Source: Rhodocyclaceae bacterium
GTDB taxonomy: Bacteria; Pseudomonadota; Gammaproteobacteria; Burkholderiales; Rhodocyclaceae
Direction: 5' to 3'
NCBI GenBank assembly: GCA_020445665.1
Contig: JAGRGD010000067.1
Span: forward strand, 1-41,176
Length of the DNA: 41,176 nt
The notes beneath the pieces were generated by a model. That model was not told the DNA's origin. It made no database searches and saw only the letters and a program-made list of their open reading frames with translations. Made by a program: the position numbers and the translations under genes. Positions within the stretch are counted from its first letter, which is position 1. Each line of letters begins with the position of its first letter. Of the stretch, positions 199 through 32,083 are shown one piece after another.

Positions 199-1275
199 TC
201 AGCCACAGGGGGCCGTGCACGCGTTGGCGTGAAGGGTCTCAATCCGGGACAGGTTGGCGACAAACAGGTCGACGAGGTGGGGGTCGAACTGCTTGCCCGA
301 CTGGGCGATCAGGTAGTCCACCGCGTTCTGCACGGACCAGGGGTCCTTGTAGGGCCGTGCCGAAACCAGCGCATCGAAGACATCGCAGATCGCCGTGATG
401 CGCCCTTCGAGCGGAATTTCCTCGCCGCGCAGGCCGTTCGGGTAGCCGGTGCCGTCCCAGCGCTCGTGGTGGCTGGCCGCGATGTCGGCGGCCATGCGCA
501 CCAGCGGGGATTCGGTGTTGTCGAGGAGCAGGCTGCCGTCACCGGCGTGGCGCTTGATCTGCTCGAACTCCGCTTCGGTGAGCTTGCCCGGCCGCATCAG
601 CAGTTCGTCGGGCACCATGACCTTGCCCACATCGTGCAGGGGCGCGGCCCGTTCGATCAGTTGTGCGGTCTCTTCGGGCAGTTCCGCGAGCTGGGCCAGC
701 AGGCCGGCGAGGCGGCCGACCCGGCGGATGTGGGGGCCGGCGCTGCGGTCGCACATCTCGCAGATCTCGCCCAGCTTGTGAACGAACGTGGCGGTGGCGG
801 TGTCGAGTTCCCGGGTGCGCTCCTGCACCTTGGCCTCGAGATCGCGATTGACTTCGCGCAGGCGGGCCAGCGAATCCTGCATCCGCAGGGTGTTGCGCAC
901 CCGCAGGATCACCTCGGTCTCGTCGAAGGGCTTGCGGACGAAGTCGTTGGCGCCCAGTTCCAGCGCCCGCAGCCGGACCTCGTCCGAGTCGATGCCGGTG
1001 ACGACGATGATCGGCACCTGCTCTTCCTCGGCGAGCTCACTGCGCAGCAGCTCCATGACCTCGAAGCCGTGCAGATGCGGCATCTCCAGATCGAGCAGCA
1101 GCAGGTCGAAGTCGCCATGACCCGACAGGGTGGGCAAGACCCGGCGGGGGTCATTGACGACGACTACCTCCCGAACGCCGCCGCGCGTGAGCACCTCATG
1201 CAGCAGCGCGGCATGGCTGGGCGAGTCGTCGCAGACGAGGATCTTGGATTCGTAGAGGTGTGGGTCGATCAGCAT
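199..1275 (-). CDS. Response regulator with HD-GYP output (c-di-GMP phosphodiesterase, RpfG type)
   Basis: The 358-residue protein has an N-terminal receiver domain (about 10-130; acidic pocket D16/D17, phospho-acceptor D62 in LLDLEMP, K115 in RKPF). A coiled linker follows (about 135-165), then an HD-GYP domain (about 165-345). The HD-GYP signature is complete: H182 in the first helix, H214-D215 (HDVGK), H243, H269-H270, and GYP at 277-279, with DALVSARPYK intact. The family hydrolyses c-di-GMP to pGpG/GMP when the receiver is phosphorylated. The start ATG at 1275 has a weak GGATG element upstream. No cognate kinase gene is adjacent, so it is probably served in trans. It contrasts with the degenerate HD-GYP protein at 8091-8954, which has lost key metal ligands. 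Confidence 0.93.
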   Translation of the reverse strand: MLIDPHLYESKILVCDDSPSHAALLHEVLTRGGVREVVVVNDPRRVLPTLSGHGDFDLLLLDLEMPHLHGFEVMELLRSELAEEEQVPIIVVTGIDSDEVRLRALELGANDFVRKPFDETEVILRVRNTLRMQDSLARLREVNRDLEAKVQERTRELDTATATFVHKLGEICEMCDRSAGPHIRRVGRLAGLLAQLAELPEETAQLIERAAPLHDVGKVMVPDELLMRPGKLTEAEFEQIKRHAGDGSLLLDNTESPLVRMAADIAASHHERWDGTGYPNGLRGEEIPLEGRITAICDVFDALVSARPYKDPWSVQNAVDYLIAQSGKQFDPHLVDLFVANLSRIETLHANACTAPCG

Positions 1276-1333
1276 CGTTCATCCGCTTGTGGCGCGGTAT
1301 GGCCCCCAATCAACGGCCGCCGGACGACGAGCT

Positions 1334-6799: not shown

Positions 6800-7294
6800 G
6801 TGCCCGTTGTCATCGAACGTCCCATCACCGCCAAACCTCCCCTATCCGAGAGCGCAGCGGGCATCGTGCCCGAGCTTGAGTCCCTGCTGCGCGAGGCATC
6901 GCGGGGCTTGCTCGCCTTTGCCGCGAAGCTGATGGTGCTCGAAGGCAGTGCCAGTGCCGCGCAGCCCGGCCACGTCCGGACCGAGCTGCCCGAGCTGCTG
7001 GCCGAGCTGACGGCCTATTGCGACGACCACTTCCGGCAGGAGGAGGCGATCCTGCGCTCGGCCGGACTGGCCATTTTCGACAGGCTGTGGGAGGCCCACA
7101 CGAGCGCCCACGCGGAACTGATGCGCGGCTTCTCCGCGGCTGCCGACGACGTCGTGCAGGATTCCGCACCGCAACTGGTGGGGCGCGTGGTGACCCTGAT
7201 CGAACAGTTCTGGTCGGTTCATCACATCGAGCATGACCGGCTGGCCTGTGATGTGTTGCGACGCCACCTGTCGGCCCCGACCTTCACGGCCTGA
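6800..7294 (+). CDS. Hemerythrin-like protein lacking the first iron-ligand His
   Basis: A 164-residue helical protein with most hemerythrin ligands: H77 and E81 (HFRQE), H100 and H104 (HTSAH), H141 and D146 (HHIEHD). The usual first-helix motif (D-x-Q/D-H) is absent: the equivalent segment, ELESLLREASRGLL, has no His. The diiron site may therefore be incomplete or use another ligand. Hemerythrins bind O2 or NO at a non-heme diiron centre. GTG 6800 is the only reasonable upstream start, with a poor ribosome binding site. It is divergent from the FAH-family gene and may be monocistronic. Compare the complete bacteriohemerythrin at 29739-30179. Confidence 0.75.
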   Translation: MPVVIERPITAKPPLSESAAGIVPELESLLREASRGLLAFAAKLMVLEGSASAAQPGHVRTELPELLAELTAYCDDHFRQEEAILRSAGLAIFDRLWEAHTSAHAELMRGFSAAADDVVQDSAPQLVGRVVTLIEQFWSVHHIEHDRLACDVLRRHLSAPTFTA

Positions 7295-7387: not shown

Positions 7388-7448
7388 TTAACGTCAGACG
7401 AAAGGCGTAGTACTCTCTCATTTCGTCATATTCGACAATTCCGACAAT
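7388..7448 (+). promoter_or_regulatory. Putative promoter and three 9-bp tandem repeats before the HTH-REC gene
   Basis: TTAACG (7388-7393), a 17-bp spacer and TACTCT (7411-7416) form a weak sigma-70-like promoter. Between it and the start codon lie three head-to-tail 9-mers: TTCGTCATA (7422), TTCGACAAT (7431) and TCCGACAAT (7440). The last two agree at 8 of 9 bases, and the third runs into the ATG. The arrangement suggests a repeated operator, possibly for the encoded HTH protein itself. Confidence 0.35.
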
Positions 7449-8064
7449 GGCCCGTCCCTCAGACGTCTCAGCGTACTGCAGCACGACCACGGCTGCGAAG
7501 CGGCTGGGCCTGTCGCCCGGCACTGTCCAGCAGATGGTCGAGAACGGCACCCTCGAGGCGTGGAAGACCGCTGGCGGGCACCGTCGCATCCTGTCTTCGT
7601 CGGTCGAGGCCTTTCTGGCCCGGTCGGGGGGGGTCGGTGTCCTGCCGCAGACCGAGCCCCATGACCGTCTCCGCGTGCTGGTGGCGGAAGACGACGCGAT
7701 CATGTGCAAGCTCTACGCCCACCATGTCGAGGAGTGGGAGCTGCCGATCGACCTGACCATCGTCGGCAACGGGGTCGATGCGCTGCTCGAACTGGGCCGC
7801 AGCCCACCCGACATGCTGATCACCGACCTGATGATGCCGATGATCGATGGCTTCGAGATGCTGCGCCGGGTTGCAGACAATCCCTTGCTGGCGGAAACGG
7901 ACATCGTCGTCGTGACGGGCATGACCGACGACGAGATCGAGGCGCGGGGCGGTCTGCCGGGCGACGTGACGCGGTATGGCAAGCCGGTGCCCTTCTCGGA
8001 ACTGCACGGCTATACCCAGGCCAAGGTGGTCGCCCTGCGTCGCCTGCAGCGGCGCGCGCGCTGA
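7447..8064 (+). CDS. Response regulator with N-terminal MerR/excisionase-type HTH domain
   Basis: A 205-residue protein with reversed architecture. An N-terminal excisionase/MerR-like winged HTH (about 10-58: STTTAAKRLGLSPGTVQ, then GGHRRI) precedes a C-terminal receiver (about 74-195; acidic E81/D82/D83, phospho-acceptor D127 in ITDLMMP, K179 in YGKPV). The HTH-first order differs from OmpR/NarL regulators. It is convergent with the signalling operon that ends at 8091, only 26 bp away, and may be a DNA-binding output for a kinase there; that link is inference. There is no clear Shine-Dalgarno; the start follows three tandem 9-mers. Confidence 0.88.
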   Translation: MARPSDVSAYCSTTTAAKRLGLSPGTVQQMVENGTLEAWKTAGGHRRILSSSVEAFLARSGGVGVLPQTEPHDRLRVLVAEDDAIMCKLYAHHVEEWELPIDLTIVGNGVDALLELGRSPPDMLITDLMMPMIDGFEMLRRVADNPLLAETDIVVVTGMTDDEIEARGGLPGDVTRYGKPVPFSELHGYTQAKVVALRRLQRRAR

Positions 8065-8090: not shown

Positions 8091-8954
8091 TCAGAAGACC
8101 GTCCACCAGTCGCCTTCCCAGTTCCGTCCGCGGGATCCCAGGCGCTGGTCGGTGACGAAGTCGCGCGCGGACGCCAGGCGCTCGAGGTTGGCGACGAAGA
8201 CGTCGACGATCTCCGGGTCGAAGCGTCGCCCGCGGGCCTGCCGGATCTCTTCCCTGACCACCTCGTCCGAGCGCTGTGCAACGCGCCCCCGGGCCATGGT
8301 GCGCTCGTCGAAGTAGTCGATCACGGCGACGATCCTGGCGGCGAGCGGGACCTGATTGCCGGCGAGCCCGGCCGGGTAGCCGCTGCCGTCCCAGTGTTCG
8401 TGGTGCCCCAGCGCGATCTCGGATGCCATGTTGAGGACCGGAATGTCGCTGCCGCCGAGGATGCGCGCGCCGATCTCGGTGTGGCTGTTCAGCAGGCGCC
8501 GCTCGACGTCGCCAGGCTCGGCCGTGCCGCGCAGGATGTCCTGGGGGACGGCGATCTTGCCGACATCGAGCATCGGCGCCGCATGGAGCAGCATGTCGCA
8601 CCAGGTGCGGGGGCGCCCCAGTTCGCGCGCCAGTATCGCCGACAGGGCGCCGATGCGGACGATCCGGACGCCGCTGTCGCCCTCCTTGAACTCCGCGGCA
8701 TGGGCCAGGCGGAACAGGGTCTCGTGGTGGGCCCGGGTGAGGGCGCGAAACGCGGCGTCGCGCTCGCAGCGGACGCGATGAAAGTCGTCGACGAGCCGGT
8801 ACATCTGGCTGAAGGCGGCTTCCCGTTCCACGCGCTCATGTTCGAGCTGTGCCCGAGGCAGCCGCAGCGGCGGGTCGCTGCGGGTCGGCACGTCGGCGTC
8901 CGACAGGGTGATCTCGGTCAGGGTGCCGAATGGGGCGATCTGAACGTCGCTCAT
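8091..8954 (-). CDS. Degenerate HD-GYP-like protein
   Basis: A 287-residue protein with an HD-GYP fold (about 75-260) but altered metal ligands. The HD dyad reads M128-L129-D130-V-G-K, so the His is Leu (codon CTC; CAC would give His). The first-helix His of the usual TGxHxxR motif is R97. The DALTxRPYK stretch is replaced by DERTMARGR. H158, H184-H185 and GYP (192-194) remain. It probably cannot hydrolyse c-di-GMP normally and may bind it or act as a partner protein. The ATG at 8954 overlaps the stop of the LOV kinase gene by 4 nt (ATGA), so it is the last gene of the 15413-8091 operon. It has no receiver domain. Confidence 0.88.
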   Translation of the reverse strand: MSDVQIAPFGTLTEITLSDADVPTRSDPPLRLPRAQLEHERVEREAAFSQMYRLVDDFHRVRCERDAAFRALTRAHHETLFRLAHAAEFKEGDSGVRIVRIGALSAILARELGRPRTWCDMLLHAAPMLDVGKIAVPQDILRGTAEPGDVERRLLNSHTEIGARILGGSDIPVLNMASEIALGHHEHWDGSGYPAGLAGNQVPLAARIVAVIDYFDERTMARGRVAQRSDEVVREEIRQARGRRFDPEIVDVFVANLERLASARDFVTDQRLGSRGRNWEGDWWTVF

Positions 8955-11900
8955 GCGTTTGCCTCCTCTGTCTGGGTTGCAGTCTGTCCGTCGCCACCGC
9001 TGGCGACAGGGAGCCACAGGGTGATGCGGGTGCCGGCGCCGCTGCGGCTCTCGAGGGCCACCCGACCCCCGTGCAGTTCGACGATCTCCTTCACCAGGGA
9101 CAGCCCGAGGCCCGTGCCGGGGATGTTTCCGGACGAGTCGGCGCGGAAGAAGCGCTCGAAGGCGCGGGCGGTCTGCTCGGGCGTCATGCCGATGCCCTGG
9201 TCGGTCACTTCGAGGCCGACGCGCTGGCCGGCGCCTTCCCCTTCGAGCAGGATGCGCAGCGTGATCTCCCCCCCTTCCGGCGAGTACTTGTAGGCGTTGG
9301 AGAGGATGTTGGTGAGTGCCTGCTGGATCTTGGCGGCGTCCACCTCGACCTCGGGCATCGGGTCGGGACGCATCACCGTCACGTGGCGTCGGTCGCCCGG
9401 CATCATCAACGCCTTGAGGGTCTCGTCCACGATGCGATCGAGGCCGATCCGGTCTATCCGGAAGTCCTTTCCGGCCCGGGCCTCGATACGGGCCAGATCA
9501 AGCAGCTCGTTGAGCAGTTGGGTCAGCCGAGTGGACTGGCGGTTGATGGTCTCGAGCAGGTCGCGGGTGCGGCCTTCGTCGTACTTGCGGTTCAGCAGCA
9601 GTTCGGAGAAGCCCATGATGCTCGCCATCGGGGTCCGCAACTCGTGGGCCGCTGTCGACAGGAACTCGCTCTTCATCCGGTCCACCTCGGATTCCCGGGT
9701 GATGTCCCGGAAATACACGACCCGGCTGGCCGCATCGGCGCCGGCCTGTCGAATGCTGCGGGACAGGACACGATGGGTCGGTTGCATCAGCGTGAGCACA
9801 TGGCGGTCCTGGCTGCGGGCGCAGGTTTCCCGTTGGTCGCAGGTGTCGCAGTCGGCCATGCAGTCGGACAGGGCCGGGAACGGCTGGGCGGGGTCGCAGC
9901 GCTCGCGCAGGCAGGCATCGAAGGCTTCGATGCTCATGCCCTCCAGCTCGCCGACGTTGAGGCCGACCATCCGCTCGAACGCAGGGTTGGCGAAGGCCAG
10001 CCGGCCCTCGCTGTCGAAGGACACGAAGCCGTCGGGGCTGAGGGTGAAGATCGTGTCGAGCCGGACAAACCACTCGAACATGCGGGCTTCGGCATCCCGC
10101 TTGTCGGTGACGTCGGTCTGTACGCCGACGTAGTGCGTCACACGGCCGGTCTGGGGATCCCGCACTGGCGCCATCGACAGCTCGTTCCAGAACATCCTGC
10201 CGTCCTTGCGGAAGTTGCGCAGCACCACCTGGCACTCGGACTCGCTGGCGAGCGCCTCGCGCAGCGTGTCCAGCTCCGGCTGGCTTGTCTCCTGCCCCTG
10301 CAGGAAGCGGCAGTTCGTGCCGATGACCTCGGCCACCTCGTAGCCGGTGATGCGGGTAAAGGCGTCGTTGGCATAGACGATCGGCTGGCCGGGCTCGGTC
10401 ATGTCCGAGATCACGATCCCGTTGGAGCTGGCCTGCAGTGCGCGGTCGCGAATGCGCAGGTCCTCTTCGGCCTGGTGGCGCTCGGTGATGTCCGAGAGCG
10501 AGCCGTTGAGGCCGCTGATCTGTCCGCCATCATCATGGGCGGCACGCGCGTGGAGGCGGATCCAGCGGAAGCCGCCGTCGGCGGTGCGGCAGCGCAGCTC
10601 GCAGGTGCAGGCGTCGCGGGTGCCGTCGAGCACCTCGTCGAGCCTGTCCCGGGCGCGCGGTCGGTCTTCCTCTAGCAGGTAGTCCAGCATCGGGCTGCCG
10701 GCAGAGGCCGTCGTGGCGAAGCCGGTGATTTCCTGCCAGGCCGGGTTGAGGAAGGTGAAGTGCTTGTGGGCGTCGGCCTGGAAGATCACATCCTTCACGC
10801 TCTCGACGACCGACTGATAGCGGCGCTCGGACCGGATGCGCTCCGAGATGTCGTTGAGGACGCCGATCATGTGGGTCACGACGGTTCCGTCGTCCTCCCG
10901 CACCGGCGAGATCGACAGTTCGCACCAGCGGCGCGCTCCGTCGCGGCAGCGCAGACGCAGGGTCACGGCACACTCGCTCCGCTGCCGCACCGCCTGGCGC
11001 AGCGTGGCAACGGCGTTCGCGTCACGACGGTCGGCATGGAGGAAGCGCCAGTCGCGCCCGATCGTTTCCTCGGCGGTGTAGCCGGTCAGGAGGGCGAAGG
11101 CCGGGTTGGCGTACTCGACCTTTTCCTCGACGCCCTGGCTGACGGCGACGATCAGGATGCCGCTGCGGCTGGATTCCAGGGCGCGATCCTTGAGTCGCAG
11201 CGTCAGTTCCGCCGCCTCACGTGCGGCCTCGGCCTCGACCTGCTCCGTGACATCGCTGATGATGCCGTCGATGTGCGCCGGCTCGCCCTGCTCGTTGAAG
11301 ACCAGGTAGATCCGCTCGAACAGCCAGCGCTGCTGGTTGTCCGGACAGCGGATGCGGTAGCGCAGCTCGGCACAGCCCTCCTCGAGCAACTCGCGGAAGA
11401 CGCTGGCGACCAACGCTTGATCTTCCTCGACGACGAGCGAGCGCAGCCATGCGAAATCCACCCGCGGGTCGAGGGAGCGTGTATTGGTGATGCGATAGGC
11501 GCTCGGGCTCATGTACAGCGTCTCGCGCAGGTCGGTGCTGACCGAATAGAGGACGTCCTGGATCGATTCCAGGATGCCGGCGAGGCGGGCCTGGGTCTCG
11601 GCGAGGGCCTGGGTGCGGCGCTCTACCTCCCGCTCGAGCCCGTCCTGGGCGCCCTGCACCGTGGCCAGCATGCGATTGAAGGCGCGCCCGACCGCGCTGA
11701 TCTCGTCGTTGCCCCGGGTCTCCACGGCACCACCGGCAGCGATGCCCTCATCGGCAATCCGGCGGGCGGTGGCGGCGAGATCCCGCAGTGGGCCGGTCAG
11801 ACGTCGGGCGGTGGCGGTTGCCAGGCTGCGGGTGGCGATCAGCGCCACCGCCGCGACCAGCAGATAGAGGAGGGAAACCTGGAGCAGGGGCGCATGGGCC

Positions 11901-12667
11901 TGGAGTGCGCTGAGTTCGGCTCGGACGAACAGGGGGGGGATGGCGGTTGCCAGACCGTCGGTCAGCGGCAGGGTCACCCCTACGCCTTCGCCGGCGAAGC
12001 TGCGCCCCGCCAGGAGCAAGGGGTTGTGGCTGGCGTCGGTGAGGGTGAGCCGGTAGTCCGCCTCCAGCGCCGCGAAGCGGGTGTGGAACAGGCCGTCCAG
12101 GTCGATCTCGACCAGCACCGCCCCTTCCGAGGTGCCGGTCGGCTCATAGATGACCGGATGAACCAGCAGCAGGTGGGCATGGGTGCCCCGTCTCAGCAGG
12201 AGCGCTTCGCTCGTGCCCGAGTCGGCGACCCGGGCCGCCACGGTCCTGTCGCTGTCGACCAGGGGCGCCTCACCGCTCCGGATCAGCGCGCGGCCACGAA
12301 AATCGACCACCTCCACCGCCCAGATGCCGGGCAGGCTGTCGCGGAATTCGCCGATGAAGGGTTCGAGATAGGCCCGCCGCCCCTCGGTGTCGGCCAGCGC
12401 GGTGCGCACCAGCGTACGGCTGGCCAGATCGCGGCTGCTCTTGACCAGGTTCTCCAGCTGGAAGCGGAAGCCCGAGGCGACATAGCCGGACTGCGCTTCG
12501 ATGCGGGCGTAGATGCGATCGCTGAGCAGCGAGCCGATTGCCGCATACGTGATGATCGAGAGGGTCAGCACGGCGGTACCCGCCAAGGCCATGGCCGCCG
12601 CCGAGAAGCGGTTGGCCAGGCTGTTGTCCACCCAGCTACGGTAGCGGGACGCAACGCGCGCGAACAT
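8951..12667 (-). CDS. Membrane multi-PAS sensor histidine kinase with LOV domain and Cys-rich PAS insertion
   Basis: A 1238-residue kinase. In order: TM1 (about 24-48), an extracytoplasmic sensor domain (about 49-258), TM2 (about 261-283), HAMP (about 284-340), a short coiled coil, then five PAS-like modules (about 363-475, 495-608, 617-730, 741-855, 865-990), HisKA with H1008 (HELRTP), and HATPase_c (N1124, DQGIG from D1156, GTGLGL from G1184). The fourth PAS is LOV-like: GTNCRFLQG with C786, NFRKDG (N818), FWN (N828) and VGVQ (Q850). The second has GRDWRFLH with W540 where LOV has Cys. The fifth carries Cys at 919, 924, 936, 940, 943 and 949. GGAGGG precedes the ATG at 12667, 2 nt after the binding-protein gene. 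An operon partner may supply the ligand. Confidence 0.93.
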   Translation of the reverse strand: MFARVASRYRSWVDNSLANRFSAAAMALAGTAVLTLSIITYAAIGSLLSDRIYARIEAQSGYVASGFRFQLENLVKSSRDLASRTLVRTALADTEGRRAYLEPFIGEFRDSLPGIWAVEVVDFRGRALIRSGEAPLVDSDRTVAARVADSGTSEALLLRRGTHAHLLLVHPVIYEPTGTSEGAVLVEIDLDGLFHTRFAALEADYRLTLTDASHNPLLLAGRSFAGEGVGVTLPLTDGLATAIPPLFVRAELSALQAHAPLLQVSLLYLLVAAVALIATRSLATATARRLTGPLRDLAATARRIADEGIAAGGAVETRGNDEISAVGRAFNRMLATVQGAQDGLEREVERRTQALAETQARLAGILESIQDVLYSVSTDLRETLYMSPSAYRITNTRSLDPRVDFAWLRSLVVEEDQALVASVFRELLEEGCAELRYRIRCPDNQQRWLFERIYLVFNEQGEPAHIDGIISDVTEQVEAEAAREAAELTLRLKDRALESSRSGILIVAVSQGVEEKVEYANPAFALLTGYTAEETIGRDWRFLHADRRDANAVATLRQAVRQRSECAVTLRLRCRDGARRWCELSISPVREDDGTVVTHMIGVLNDISERIRSERRYQSVVESVKDVIFQADAHKHFTFLNPAWQEITGFATTASAGSPMLDYLLEEDRPRARDRLDEVLDGTRDACTCELRCRTADGGFRWIRLHARAAHDDGGQISGLNGSLSDITERHQAEEDLRIRDRALQASSNGIVISDMTEPGQPIVYANDAFTRITGYEVAEVIGTNCRFLQGQETSQPELDTLREALASESECQVVLRNFRKDGRMFWNELSMAPVRDPQTGRVTHYVGVQTDVTDKRDAEARMFEWFVRLDTIFTLSPDGFVSFDSEGRLAFANPAFERMVGLNVGELEGMSIEAFDACLRERCDPAQPFPALSDCMADCDTCDQRETCARSQDRHVLTLMQPTHRVLSRSIRQAGADAASRVVYFRDITRESEVDRMKSEFLSTAAHELRTPMASIMGFSELLLNRKYDEGRTRDLLETINRQSTRLTQLLNELLDLARIEARAGKDFRIDRIGLDRIVDETLKALMMPGDRRHVTVMRPDPMPEVEVDAAKIQQALTNILSNAYKYSPEGGEITLRILLEGEGAGQRVGLEVTDQGIGMTPEQTARAFERFFRADSSGNIPGTGLGLSLVKEIVELHGGRVALESRSGAGTRITLWLPVASGGDGQTATQTEEANA

Positions 12668-12669
12668 GG

Positions 12670-13881
12670 TCAGCCCTCCGAATAGACCGGCAGCAGGCGG
12701 CCTTTCCTGTCGAAGCGGGTGAGGAGCAGATCGTCCCGCGACAGGCCTTCGTGACGATTGGCGGTAAATGCCGGTGCGTATCGCCGCACGACCCCCTCGT
12801 ACGGGGGCAGGGCCTCGAGCGCGGCGCGTATCGCCGCCCGATCGGTACTGCCGGCCTGCTGGATCGCCAGGGCGAGCAGGCGGACGAGGTCGTAGGCCTG
12901 GGCGATGCCCAGCGCTGACGGGATCTCCAGCGGATCGGACACGCCATAGGCCTGGGCGCTGCGCTCTGCCAGCCGGCGCGCCTCGGCATTGCGCAGGCGC
13001 GCGAAGCTGAAGGTCTGGATGATCTTGAGGTCGATCTCGTGCAGGGCGGGACCGCACAGCTCGGCGAAGCGACCGCCGGTCACGCCCCAGTGGCTCACCA
13101 CCGGAATCCGCCGTGATGGCGGGAGGCTGGCCATGTTGCGCACCAGTACCGCGCCCTCGGGTTCGTTCGCGACGAGGACCAGGCCGCGCGCGCCCTTTTC
13201 GAGCATCGGCAGGTAGCGGTTCATCAGGTCCGTCTCGCCGCCCCAGTTGTGCCAGGCCGTGGCCCGCAGCGCGAGTTCGGGTCGGGCGGCGATGTGGGCG
13301 CGGGCCGCGGACTCATTGCTCCGGCCCCAGCCGCTGTTGGGCACGAACAGCCCGATGTCGCGGATGCCCCGGCGGGCGAGGTCGTCGATCAGAACCTGCA
13401 TGGCCCAGCTGTCCCGCAGCCCGACGCGGAAGACGTAGTTGGGCGAATAGCCGTTGTCGACGATTCCGTCGGCCGCAGCCCAGGGGTCCAGCAAGGGCAG
13501 GCCGAGCTCGTGAATGACCGGCAGCGAGGCGAGGGCCACCGGGCTGAACTTGCCGCACAGGTAGGCGACGAGATCGTCGATCGCGCCGAAGGCCCGCACG
13601 TTCTCGATCCCCCGCGCCGGCAGGCTGCGATTGTCGAGTGCCATCAGTTGCAGGGGTCGGCCGCCGAGCAGGCCGCCGTCGCGGTTGATGTCCGCGATGG
13701 CCAGCTCGATGCCGAGGCGGATGGCTTCATCCGAGGTGCTGGTCCGGTCGCGGAACTCGGCGTCGAGTCCGATCAGGATCGGGCGCGGGCCGGCGGCCCG
13801 GGCCAGGCCACCTGCGAGCCCCAGTCCGAGGAGCGAGGCGCCGGCCGCAAGGCTGCGTCGTCGTTGCTTGTCGATCATCAT
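12670..13881 (-). CDS. Periplasmic substrate-binding protein (branched-chain amino acid/urea type)
   Basis: About 403 residues of the Peripla_BP_6 (LivJ/UrtA-like) fold. It has a twin-arginine-like leader (QRRRSLAAG, Ala cleavage near ARAAG), then two lobes starting PILIGLDAEF and continuing through DINRDGGLLGGRPL to YLCGKFSPVALA. No permease or ATPase gene is near, and it sits between a receiver gene (9-nt gap) and the sensor kinase gene (2-nt gap). This suggests it senses a ligand for the kinase rather than importing it, as LuxP does for LuxQ; that role is inference. GAGG sits 7 nt before the ATG at 13881; ATGs at 13887 and 13878 are alternatives. Confidence 0.9.
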   Translation of the reverse strand: MMIDKQRRRSLAAGASLLGLGLAGGLARAAGPRPILIGLDAEFRDRTSTSDEAIRLGIELAIADINRDGGLLGGRPLQLMALDNRSLPARGIENVRAFGAIDDLVAYLCGKFSPVALASLPVIHELGLPLLDPWAAADGIVDNGYSPNYVFRVGLRDSWAMQVLIDDLARRGIRDIGLFVPNSGWGRSNESAARAHIAARPELALRATAWHNWGGETDLMNRYLPMLEKGARGLVLVANEPEGAVLVRNMASLPPSRRIPVVSHWGVTGGRFAELCGPALHEIDLKIIQTFSFARLRNAEARRLAERSAQAYGVSDPLEIPSALGIAQAYDLVRLLALAIQQAGSTDRAAIRAALEALPPYEGVVRRYAPAFTANRHEGLSRDDLLLTRFDRKGRLLPVYSEG

Positions 13882-13890
13882 GGCCATGCC

Positions 13891-14280
13891 TCAGGCGGCT
13901 TCGCCTGCCGCGCTCTCAAGCATCATGTCGACCGTGTCGATCAGCTCGAGCGGGCTGAAGGGTTTGGTGAGGTAGGCGTCTGCGCCGGCCTTGTCGCCTG
14001 CTTCAAGGTCCGTCTGCTGACCGCGTGCGGTCAGCATCACGACCTTGGTCGGCGCCAGCGAGGGCGTGCTCTTGACCCGCTCGCAGACCTGGAATCCGTC
14101 CAGTTCTCCCGGCATCATCACGTCGAGCAGCATCAGGTGGGGCTTGAGACCCTCCACCATGCGCAGGCCACTGGCGCCGTTGTCGGCCTCGTGCAGCTCG
14201 TAGTCGCCGAACTCGAGGGTCATCCGGATCAGCTTGCGGATGTCTGCCTGGTCTTCAACGATCAGAATGATCTTGCTCAT
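13891..14280 (-). CDS. Single-domain response regulator (CheY-like)
   Basis: A 129-residue stand-alone receiver: E9-D10 acidic pair, phospho-acceptor D53 (LLDVMMPG), T84 (LTAR) and K106 (TKPF). There is no output domain, so it probably shuttles phosphoryl groups or acts by protein-protein contact. Its start overlaps the stop of the preceding kinase-like gene by 4 nt (ATGA), and the binding-protein gene follows closely. Likely phospho-donor is the LOV kinase. A CheZ-like phosphatase candidate is encoded 1.4 kb upstream at 15683-16255. Confidence 0.93.
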   Translation of the reverse strand: MSKIILIVEDQADIRKLIRMTLEFGDYELHEADNGASGLRMVEGLKPHLMLLDVMMPGELDGFQVCERVKSTPSLAPTKVVMLTARGQQTDLEAGDKAGADAYLTKPFSPLELIDTVDMMLESAAGEAA

Positions 14281-15413
14281 GTCTCGCTCCCGGATACGGT
14301 GGCCGCCGCTCTGCGGCGCTCCATCAGGCGCGCGAGGTCGCGCGCATAGCGTTGGGCCTGCTCGAGGTCGAGCTGGCCGTCCTGTTGTTGGGGTGCACCT
14401 GCGGGCAGTTCGATCACGCAGCCAAAGTCGTCGTCGCCCGCCTGCTCGATGCTCATGCGCCCGCGATGCAGTTCGATGATCTGGCGCGCGAGGGGGAGGC
14501 CCAGACCAAAACCCGGTACCTGGCGCCGGCGCGCATTGCGCCCCCGGTAAACCGGTTGCATCAGCCGCTGCCGCAGGGCCGGCGCCATCACGCCCGCGCC
14601 CGCGTTGCGGACCGTGATGCGCAGGAAGCCGTTGAGGAGGACCGCCCTGACGGCAACCTCACTGCCGTTCGGCGCGTAGGTGATGGCGTTCTCCAGGACC
14701 TCGCGCAGCGCCCGGCCGAGCCAGCGTTCGCTGCCGTAGAGGGGCGGCAGGTCATCCGCCGCCACCGCGGCGATCGTGAGGTTCCCCTTGCTGGCCAGTT
14801 CCTGCATGCCGTGGCACTCTGCGGTGAGCCACGGGCGAACCAGAATCCGGTCATCGGCGCGGATGGCGTGGCCCTCGGAGAGCGAGGCCAGGGTCGACAG
14901 GCGCGAAACCTGTTCGGCCAGCCGGCTGGCCAGGGTGGCTGCCCGCTTACGCGCGGCAGTCAGCCGCCCCTCATCGACCGGTTCGCCGCACAGCGCCACC
15001 AGTTCGCCCAGGGCCTCGTCGAGCTGGTCCATCGGGGTCCGGCACTCACGCTCTATCAGCTGGGACAGGTTGTCGATGGCGGCAGAGAAGAACTGGTCTT
15101 CCGTCAGGTTGTAGAGGACCACCACGAAATCCGTGCCGACGGGACTGGCGAGGAGGTGGGCCTGGATGGTGTCGGCGTCGGCCACCAGGCACTCCTCGCC
15201 GAGCTGGATGCGCTCGACATGCGGAACGGTCAGGTGGCCAGCGGTTGCACCTGCCACCATCCGGGCAATCTGGGGGTTGTTGATGGGCTTGTCGGTCCGC
15301 GAGGGAATCAGCCGCAGGGCGGCTTCGTTGGCGAAGCGGACCTGCCCCTGACGCGAGATGATGAACAGCCCGTCCCTGACGGTATGAAAGAGCCGTTTCA
15401 TGAGCGGATTCAT
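14277..15413 (-). CDS. Predicted pseudo-histidine kinase (PAS, DHp-like, HATPase_c)
   Basis: A 378-residue soluble protein. A PAS-like domain (about 1-105) is followed by a DHp-like helical pair (about 108-180) and an HATPase_c domain (about 190-340). Where kinases have HELRTP it reads R122-E-C-R-T-P, so the phospho-acceptor His is Arg (codon CGT; CAT would give His). The N-box is kept (EN at 241-242), but the G1 motif is N270-A-G-A-G with Asn for the usual Asp; G2 is intact (GFGLGL from 301). It is unlikely to autophosphorylate and may act as a scaffold or phosphatase-like regulator. It is the first gene of the five-gene operon. AGGATC precedes the ATG at 15413. Confidence 0.88.
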   Translation of the reverse strand: MNPLMKRLFHTVRDGLFIISRQGQVRFANEAALRLIPSRTDKPINNPQIARMVAGATAGHLTVPHVERIQLGEECLVADADTIQAHLLASPVGTDFVVVLYNLTEDQFFSAAIDNLSQLIERECRTPMDQLDEALGELVALCGEPVDEGRLTAARKRAATLASRLAEQVSRLSTLASLSEGHAIRADDRILVRPWLTAECHGMQELASKGNLTIAAVAADDLPPLYGSERWLGRALREVLENAITYAPNGSEVAVRAVLLNGFLRITVRNAGAGVMAPALRQRLMQPVYRGRNARRRQVPGFGLGLPLARQIIELHRGRMSIEQAGDDDFGCVIELPAGAPQQQDGQLDLEQAQRYARDLARLMERRRAAATVSGSET

Positions 15414-15682: not shown

Positions 15683-16255
15683 TCAGAACAGCTCGACGTC
15701 GTTGCTGTCCTCGGCGCCACCAGATCTGCTGCGGTAGGTGTCGAGCGCTTCCTGGACCGGCATGCCGTTCATCACGGCCTCGAACATCTCGTGCTCTTCC
15801 GCCGTCGAGTATCGAGCGCGGATCTTCTCCTGCAAGCCGACCCACTCCGCCGGGTTGAACAGCCGGCCGTTGTCACCGACCAGCAAGCCCAGCGCATCGA
15901 GGCTGTGACAGACGTGGGCAAGCCGCTGGGCGAGCTTGTCATAGAACTGAAAAGCCACGATCGAGGCGTGCACCATCTGGCCCGCCTCCCCTGCCTGAGT
16001 GCTCAGCTGTGCCTTGATGGGGGCGTTCTCCGGCGTCTGCGGCAGGGAGTCGGCCGTGGAGGCAATCGTCCGCATGCTGCCGGCGAGCGTCGTGAAGCTG
16101 TCGATCAGCACGTCAACGAACGAGCCCCCTTCGCGCATCGCCGCTTCGATCTGTCCCGCAGCCAGTTGCAGCAGGAGTACGGTTTCCCGGACCTGACTCC
16201 AGTCGAGATCCGGTGTTCTGGCGCTGCTGCCCCGTAGTGTGTCCTTGTCTTCCAT
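15683..16255 (-). CDS. CheZ-like response-regulator phosphatase candidate
   Basis: A 190-residue, mostly helical, cytoplasmic protein. The central segment IVAFQFYDKLAQRLAHV contains D106-x3-Q110, the spacing of the catalytic Asp and Gln of CheZ (D143/Q147 in E. coli). The protein ends in a short acidic-hydrophobic tail (SNDVELF), similar in character to the CheY-docking tail of CheZ. A long amphipathic helix region (about 20-125) fits a CheZ-type helical hairpin. It lies upstream of a CheY-like gene but is separated by a terminator. I chose ATG 16255; an in-frame ATG at 16294 would add 13 residues. Overall similarity is limited, so function is a hypothesis. Confidence 0.7.
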   Translation of the reverse strand: MEDKDTLRGSSARTPDLDWSQVRETVLLLQLAAGQIEAAMREGGSFVDVLIDSFTTLAGSMRTIASTADSLPQTPENAPIKAQLSTQAGEAGQMVHASIVAFQFYDKLAQRLAHVCHSLDALGLLVGDNGRLFNPAEWVGLQEKIRARYSTAEEHEMFEAVMNGMPVQEALDTYRSRSGGAEDSNDVELF

Positions 16256-16387
16256 CGTTCTCTGTCCGGTTGGCTGGGATCGCAATGGATTCATCTTCGG
16301 CACGCGCCAGCGCTTCTTAAGCGGTGGCTGAGCCGGACCGCGCGGCATCGACCCCGTCGATATGACAATGATTCGGGCGGGCCGGCG

Positions 16388-31562: not shown

Positions 31563-32083
31563 AGGCGTACCTCGTCCACCAGACGCCGCAGGCGCTCGAC
31601 CGCGGCGCCCCCGTCGTCGGCGGCTCCGCGGCGGATCTGCAGCGAGGCGCTCTCGAGGGCGCCGGCGATCTCGTCGTAGTGGCGGTACAGATGTTGCACG
31701 GTCTCCTCAAGGCGGCGTGCGTCTTCCTGGGCGTCGTCCTCGACCCGCAGGCGAACGCGGGGGACCTCACCCTCGCGGATGCCGTGCTCCAGGTCCAGGC
31801 AGAAGCGGTGCAGCGGTCCGGCGACGCGGAAGCTGCTGTAGAGGGCAATCAGCCAGGTGGTCAGTGCGGTCCCGATGGCCAGCACCAGGCCGCCGATCAG
31901 CATCAGTGTCAGCAGTTGCTGCCGGCTCAGGCTGAGGTTTTGCACCAGTGCGACGTAGTCACCCTCCGCGGGGCGCGCCAGCAGCAGCACGCCGGCGAGA
32001 CCGGCGAGCGCGGCGCCGGCGAACCACAGGGACACGCGGCCGACCAGCCTGAGCTGGCCGAACTGGCGGGGAGAATTCGGCAT
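31559..32083 (-). CDS. Two-TM HAMP-like membrane protein
   Basis: A 174-residue protein with TM1 (about 14-36), a short periplasmic loop containing SRQQLL, TM2 (about 58-82), and a HAMP-like segment starting FRVAGPLHRF followed by a helical coiled-coil tail to the end. The FRxAGPLxRF motif is typical of membrane HAMP proteins near multiheme cytochromes. No output domain is present. It is the first gene of a three-gene overlapping set with the heptaheme cytochrome and a second two-TM protein. The ATG at 32083 has only a weak ribosome binding site. Confidence 0.82.
   Translation of the reverse strand: MPNSPRQFGQLRLVGRVSLWFAGAALAGLAGVLLLARPAEGDYVALVQNLSLSRQQLLTLMLIGGLVLAIGTALTTWLIALYSSFRVAGPLHRFCLDLEHGIREGEVPRVRLRVEDDAQEDARRLEETVQHLYRHYDEIAGALESASLQIRRGAADDGGAAVERLRRLVDEVRL

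Follow-up and report, generated by a model that had tools for sequence, protein, structure and literature searches.

The histidine-kinase-like protein K1, encoded in a five-gene signalling operon of a Rhodocyclaceae bacterium, appears to have lost the chemistry of a kinase and probably serves a distinct function, since similar dead kinases adjoin the same type of relay protein in related bacteria. The operon occupies positions 8091-15413 of the window (the whole stretch of DNA that was analysed, 41,176 nucleotides), and its genes lie on the minus strand in the order K1-REC-SBP-HK-HD. We place the probability at roughly 0.45 that these genes, together with a convergent gene termed HTH-REC, form a modular multi-branch two-component cassette, in which the binding protein SBP would feed the histidine kinase HK, HK would pass the signal to the receiver REC, K1 would read REC in the manner of DivL, and HD and HTH-REC would serve as outputs. 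Each kind of component is already known; the K1 family is the part of interest. Among the matches listed from a search of openly licensed papers, no paper was found on this set of genes or on the K1 family.

K1 (14277-15413, minus strand; 378 aa) is a pseudo-histidine-kinase with a PAS-like N-terminus followed by a DHp-like and HATPase_c region. Downstream are REC (13891-14280, minus strand; 129 aa), a stand-alone receiver of the CheY/PhoB type (Response_reg in Pfam); SBP (12670-13887, minus strand; 405 aa), a binding protein of the Leu/Ile/Val-binding type (Peripla_BP_6 in Pfam); HK (8951-12667, minus strand; 1238 aa), with an ectodomain, HAMP, several PAS, HisKA and HATPase_c (Pfam); and HD (8091-8954, minus strand; 287 aa), a protein of HD-GYP type (HD_5 in Pfam). 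All five of the packed genes described in an initial annotation of this DNA are present, and no overlap or gap exceeds 4 nt: K1 and REC overlap by 4 nt, as do HK and HD, REC and SBP are 3 nt apart, and SBP and HK 2 nt apart. The same annotation placed an HTH-REC gene in convergent orientation 26 bp away, and the gene does lie there (7447-8064, plus strand; excisionase-type HTH_17 plus Response_reg in Pfam), its end being separated by 26 bp from the stop codon of HD.

The six genes were found in the same order at three other loci (L032, L034 and L058), from which it follows that the arrangement is not due to chance. The closest named relatives, Rhodocyclaceae bacterium HKST-UBA161/162/163, are represented by L032-L034, and in L033/L057 the order K1-REC-SBP-HK is retained as far as the end of the contig. 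L058, from a different genus, has all six genes, with HK as two open frames; these overlapping kinase frames (L058, 5479-9239; one sensor/PAS, the other HisKA-HATPase) represent either a real split or an assembly frameshift. Many K1 loci stop at contig ends, so that the counts of HD, SBP and HTH-REC given below are lower bounds, and the gene finding and home-made profiles behind these neighbourhood counts are rough. Outside the six genes, a hemerythrin-like gene (window 6800-7294; PF01814, at the cut-off) lies just before HTH-REC and is also present in L032, its profile giving no match in the other K1 loci scanned. A protein of 221 aa is encoded upstream of K1 (window 15683-16348) and has a relative upstream of K1 in L032 and L097; its identification as CheZ was considered and rejected, as Pfam gave no credible match.

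To collect K1 loci, a profile built from five K1 sequences with Arg at the acceptor site (see below) was applied at E 1e-40; this procedure misses divergent members, and the conservation observed in K1 is partly due to selection of the sample. The 22 K1 loci are the window (W), L032, L034, L057, L058, L064 and L097-L112; the K1 of L064 (genome G016) was found via its SBP, not by the K1 profile. At this threshold, the family sample of 395 genomes gave a K1 match in 17 and the order sample of 399 genomes in 5 (own genome counted in both), the order matches including two further families, and K1 spans three families of the order. In the genus sample, four of the six genomes (own genome included) have K1, and the other two gave only weak kinase-like matches. 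The only match outside the own genome in a class-wide sample of 321 genomes, which includes some of the order, was G941/L116, which was rejected as a K1, being an ordinary kinase with HELRTP. Absence of K1 from Thauera phenylacetica (genome G1099) was likewise considered and rejected: its locus L035 comprises REC-SBP-HK-HD with no adjacent K1, and a K1 lies on another contig, near the end of that contig. In L035, both of the first HD ligands are intact and a second HD adjoins.

A quick tree groups the 22 K1 in one clade against 42 HisKA kinases (SH-aLRT 100). For three pairs, the dN/dS ratios, which are approximate as dS is near 1, were 0.13-0.18 for K1, 0.25-0.31 for HK, 0.22-0.31 for HD and 0.07-0.16 for REC. 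K1 is under purifying selection, and this, together with its steady neighbourhood, led to rejection of the idea that K1 is a mere broken gene.

In the K1 of the window, Pfam finds HATPase_c and weak matches to PAS, and no HisKA. The H-box reads RECRTP, with Arg122 (codon CGT) in place of the phospho-acceptor His, and the G1 box has Asn in place of Asp; the protein retains the Asn of the N-box, the glycines of G2 and the Thr at +4, and with these residues it may still bind ATP or act as a phosphatase. Across the 22 K1, the acceptor column holds eight Arg, three Ser, two Thr, two Leu, one each of Gln, Val, Cys, Ala and His, and two gaps. The sole His is that of L100, where the box is otherwise degraded; with this exception, a non-phosphorylatable residue at the His site is family-wide, the substitute varying. 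Thirteen of the 22 keep the N-box Asn, 11 the full set of three G2 glycines, three the Thr/Asn associated with phosphatase activity, and one the G1 Asp. The comparison kinases have the His in 42 of 42, partly by construction, having been picked with the HisKA profile. In the family scan, HisKA gave no match in the 21 K1 scanned, and HATPase_c was found in 19 of them. The Arg codon CGT noted in the initial annotation is real, but the recent loss by a single substitution that it proposed was rejected: relatives down to 24% identity also lack the His, and the residues are lost nearly throughout an old family. Read from the sequences, the loss of the acceptor His is old and nearly clade-wide.

K1 also has conserved features that are not those of kinases, i.e., YGS with WL..AL before the N-box and a C-terminal tail, QAxRYAxDLxxL. 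A loose pattern for the tail, applied to all K1 loci but L057, matched 20 of 21, the exception being L111 with a variant form; it also matched a few other open reading frames, e.g. the GGDEF-EAL protein of L064. The structure model of K1 is poor (mean pLDDT 54). DivL (4q20) was the second-best solved-structure match in a search with the K1 profile; ordinary histidine kinases score alike and the match is therefore non-specific. No membrane part was seen in either K1 or REC.

A receiver domain on the same strand starts no more than 170 nt after K1 in 20 of the 22 loci, and no more than 44 nt after it in 19 (the distance of 170 nt is that of L112). The exceptions are L100, which has HD between K1 and the receiver, and L099, which stops at the contig edge. 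The phospho-acceptor Asp, the switch Thr and the Lys are retained in all 20 receivers beside K1, and the REC of the window, a receiver alone in which Asp, Thr and Lys are present, is a single-domain response regulator. The proposal of a stand-alone receiver beside the pseudo-kinase is thus borne out by an intact REC that follows K1 in 20 of 22 loci. The best NCBIfam matches, both below the cut-off, are PhoB for REC and PhoR for K1, a hint that the pair may descend from a kinase-regulator pair. K1-REC recurs with kinases that have CHASE or only PAS; thus SBP and LOV, which had been counted among the parts of the operon, are indeed parts of it but not its core, being optional inputs without which K1-REC also occurs.

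Within the operon, HK alone is a complete kinase; with the HisKA His, the ATP-site boxes and standard residues in all columns checked, it is an orthodox histidine kinase. In 17 of the 22 K1 loci, the kinase belongs to one HK clade (SH-aLRT 99), which includes the Thauera kinase of L035; seven other kinases that flank K1 fall outside this clade, two of them adjoining K1 (L099 and L100). HK contains a LOV-type Cys motif, NCRFLQG, the NCRFLQ portion of which is a signature of LOV photoreceptors. The motif is also present in L032, L034 and L057, with variants in L097, L098 and L103, and the same pattern gave no match in the remaining K1 loci. The cytoplasmic domain for light or redox input that had been suggested for this kinase is consistent with the motif.

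The ectodomain of HK was modelled with a pLDDT of 84 and is predicted to be Cache-like: its fold matches in the PDB are the sensor domains of KinD, DctB, LuxQ (also in the LuxP-LuxQ complex) and PctA, with query TM-scores of about 0.5. PctA has been termed dCACHE, and a relative, L025, matches dCache_1 below the cut-off. In eight kinases from clusters without SBP, Pfam identifies CHASE in two (L103 and L106) and PAS with no named ectodomain in six, one of which (L102) weakly matches the profile of the window ectodomain.

SBP carries an export signal whose motif looks Tat-like. It is present in 10 of the 22 K1 clusters (W, L032, L034, L057, L058, L064, L097, L098, L100 and L101); weak, more distant matches in L099 and L106 were left out of this count. 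A search for SBP in 150 genomes of the family gave 24 places, including the window, and in 20 of them an open reading frame with the same ectodomain adjoins. These 20 frames comprise 11 with a kinase domain, five with GGDEF or GGDEF-EAL, and four with no output domain seen, three of the four being truncated where the locus ends. At the other four places, three distant SBPs lie beside genes that by eye are LivH permease-like or ABC ATPase-like, and in L061 neither an ectodomain frame nor a permease-like gene was seen adjoining. The earlier suggestion of a kinase with periplasmic input gains support from the 20 of 24 places and from LuxQ among the fold matches. In the literature, the genes of characterised SBP-kinase pairs are reported as neighbours in 10 of 11 cases, and genes for SBP and HK lying side by side as not always functionally linked (PMC11113362). 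Since five of the 20 partners are GGDEF or GGDEF-EAL proteins, the SBP-ectodomain pair is not tied to the cassette; it is a movable input unit for kinases and c-di-GMP enzymes. The five (L020, L060, L066, L067 and L069) are binding-protein-linked c-di-GMP enzymes. In L070, L071, L072 and L076, the SBP frames are about 720-780 aa long and SBP matches their C-terminal half only, leaving an N-terminal part of 350 residues; the adjoining kinases are hybrids with two receivers.

A partner permease for SBP was sought with PF02653 (LivHM-type permease) in the assembly (341 contigs, 94% complete), and none was found. Nine matches were obtained genome-wide, eight of them over the cut-off and in four pairs (on C19, C24, C108 and C201), all of which adjoin other binding proteins (C19 by Pfam). 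To this extent, rather than as an absolute absence, SBP is without a permease, as had been stated. A short PF02653 match below the cut-off (window 31826-32038; 19.7 bits) lies far from the operon.

In the HD of the window, the first metal-ligand His has become Arg (CGG) and the His of the HD motif has become Leu (CTC); the later ligands and GYP are kept (HD_5, 102.8 bits), and the protein lacks the complete set of metal-ligand His/Asp of an HD-GYP phosphodiesterase. The Leu codon reported by the initial annotation is correct, but not the implied lone loss by a single substitution: the preceding ligand His is also lost, and the losses are lineage-specific. HD-GYP is present in 13 of the 22 K1 clusters (W, L032, L034, L058, L097, L098, L100, L101, L104, L106, L110, L111 and L112). 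Both of the first ligands are intact in five of the 13 (L098, L100, L106, L110 and L112; the HDs of L098 and L100 are without the Lys after HD-x-G). L058 has lost only the first ligand, and the remaining seven have neither, L111 being a badly degraded copy. The HD tree, in which 5 of 19 branches are well supported, implies at least three changes of the first His and at least four of the second, and as far as this weak tree and these residues allow, the metal-site losses are lineage-specific. Catalytic residues are lost nearly throughout the orthologues of K1, but not in those of HD, which is intact in several lineages. Orthologues with intact His had been named beforehand as counter-evidence; HD has such orthologues, whereas K1 does not. 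NCBIfam gave HD a single match, NF053512 (NosR-type), which scored 100 where the cut-off is 400 bits. The place of HD in L064 is taken by a PAS-GGDEF-EAL protein, encoded between K1-REC and SBP-HK. A second HD-GYP gene (window 199-1278) has intact metal-site residues at the positions checked. HTH-REC, a probable transcriptional output, is found near 13 of the 22 K1 genes (W, L032, L034, L058, L064, L097, L102, L103, L104, L106, L109, L110 and L112).

From gene content, order, residue losses, conservation and selection, we infer the following interactions, phosphotransfer steps, ligand and outputs. SBP, having bound a solute in the periplasm, would present it to HK at the Cache-like ectodomain, in a manner like that of LuxP/LuxQ, and in HK a blue-light or redox input via the LOV-type PAS would possibly be combined with it. 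HK would phosphorylate REC and probably also HTH-REC. K1, which would have much of the kinase fold and none of the chemistry, would bind to REC or REC~P in the way that DivL binds DivK~P, and would sense, stabilise or sequester the phospho-signal and relay it, perhaps via the conserved C-terminal helix. HD would constitute a c-di-GMP branch: it is likely a phosphodiesterase in some relatives, and in the window, where two metal ligands are missing, it is for that reason more likely an allosteric partner similar to HnoD. Confidence is highest that SBP feeds HK, and falls through the phosphorylation of REC by HK, the absence of kinase chemistry from K1 and the docking of K1 on REC to the contact made by HD. 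The intact receiver next to K1, the monophyly of K1, the shared HK clade of 17 loci, the loss of the acceptor, a dN/dS of K1 below that of HK, the conserved non-kinase motifs, the ectodomain frames beside SBP and the HD-GYP genes near K1 speak for this scheme, whereas the His of L100, the ATP-site residues and Thr kept by the K1 of the window, the seven kinases outside the HK clade, the non-specific DivL match, the poor K1 model, the use of the SBP-ectodomain pair by GGDEF proteins, the known cases of neighbouring SBP and HK genes without a functional link and the patchiness of the K1 clusters (17 of 395 family genomes; two of six genus genomes with weak matches only) speak against it.

The low-confidence model of K1 suggests a DHp-like helical hairpin, and through such helices K1 could act on HK rather than on REC, forming a heterodimer or higher complex that blocks or biases HK, as RetS is reported to do with GacS. 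Co-evolution of K1 and HK would lead one to expect the 17 K1 loci with a kinase in one HK clade, and RetS is among the solved-structure matches of K1; however, many ordinary kinases outscore RetS in that search, and in 20 of 22 loci K1 is followed directly by a receiver gene. Action on HK seems rather unlikely. We consider it less likely again that K1 is a dedicated REC~P phosphatase without kinase activity. In HisKA kinases, the residues of E-x-x-T serve phosphatase activity, and the K1 of the window has retained them (RECRT) beside the lost His, plus much of the ATP site, but Thr or Asn stands there in only 3 of 22 K1, with Ala, Asp, Glu, Gly, Gln, Val or a gap in the others, including the close relatives L034 and L057.

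An ordinary SBP-HK-REC system, with K1 and HD as functionless leftovers in decay, would account for the lack of catalytic residues in both proteins, as well as for the faster evolution of HD (dN/dS 0.22-0.31) and the changes at its ligand His (at least three and at least four, on a weak tree). Against this stand the open frames retained across genera, a dN/dS for K1 that is lower than that for HK, and the conserved new motifs of K1 and its steady position beside REC, which together make decay improbable.

A wider proposal extends the scheme in which K1 reads REC, and is put forward more tentatively than that scheme: K1 may represent a family of pseudo-histidine-kinases, from outside the alphaproteobacteria and not described before, that is dedicated to the neighbouring single-domain receiver and reverses the usual two-component flow. 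The receiver would be loaded by the active kinase and read by the dead one, which would drive the branches for c-di-GMP and for transcription. K1-REC would be the constant element, and the input would be exchangeable: SBP with the Cache-like ectodomain, CHASE, or cytosolic PAS/LOV. How widely nature uses dead kinases as sensors of receivers is a question that the DivL paper left open (PMC4211667), and with an adjoining receiver gene for 20 of the 22 sampled K1, it becomes testable with two small proteins. The losses at the HD-GYP metal site within one neighbourhood provide a natural series, possibly from enzyme to binding partner.

The closest known system for K1 is DivL/DivK of Caulobacter. 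DivL is reported to have neither kinase nor phosphatase activity and to stabilise DivK~P (PMC4211667). Like DivL, K1 has a kinase fold without the acceptor His, PAS upstream, and a stand-alone receiver as candidate partner. Unlike DivL, it has Arg and many other residues rather than Tyr at the acceptor site, one PAS-like region, and a C-terminal tail for which the compared kinases showed no counterpart; it also adjoins the gene of its candidate receiver, in another proteobacterial lineage. The SBP-HK portion resembles LuxP/LuxQ, in that the gene for a periplasmic binding protein adjoins that for a kinase whose ectodomain is predicted to have a LuxQ-like fold, but differs in the Leu/Ile/Val-type SBP, in the non-hybrid, multi-PAS/LOV kinase, and in the separate receivers.

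For the outputs, the nearest parallel is the HnoK/HnoS-HnoB-HnoC-HnoD network of Shewanella, in which the several outputs of a kinase are described as including a regulator that binds DNA and HnoD, a degenerate HD-GYP protein that suppresses the phosphodiesterase HnoB through direct contact (PMC6335343). The present operon departs from that network in that HD is without a receiver and no EAL partner is encoded in the operon, and in having K1, SBP and LOV in addition. NosR, described as a degenerate HD-GYP protein from a two-component operon (PMC12570481), is similar to HD in its altered metal site and genetic setting, but has a receiver, whereas HD has none.
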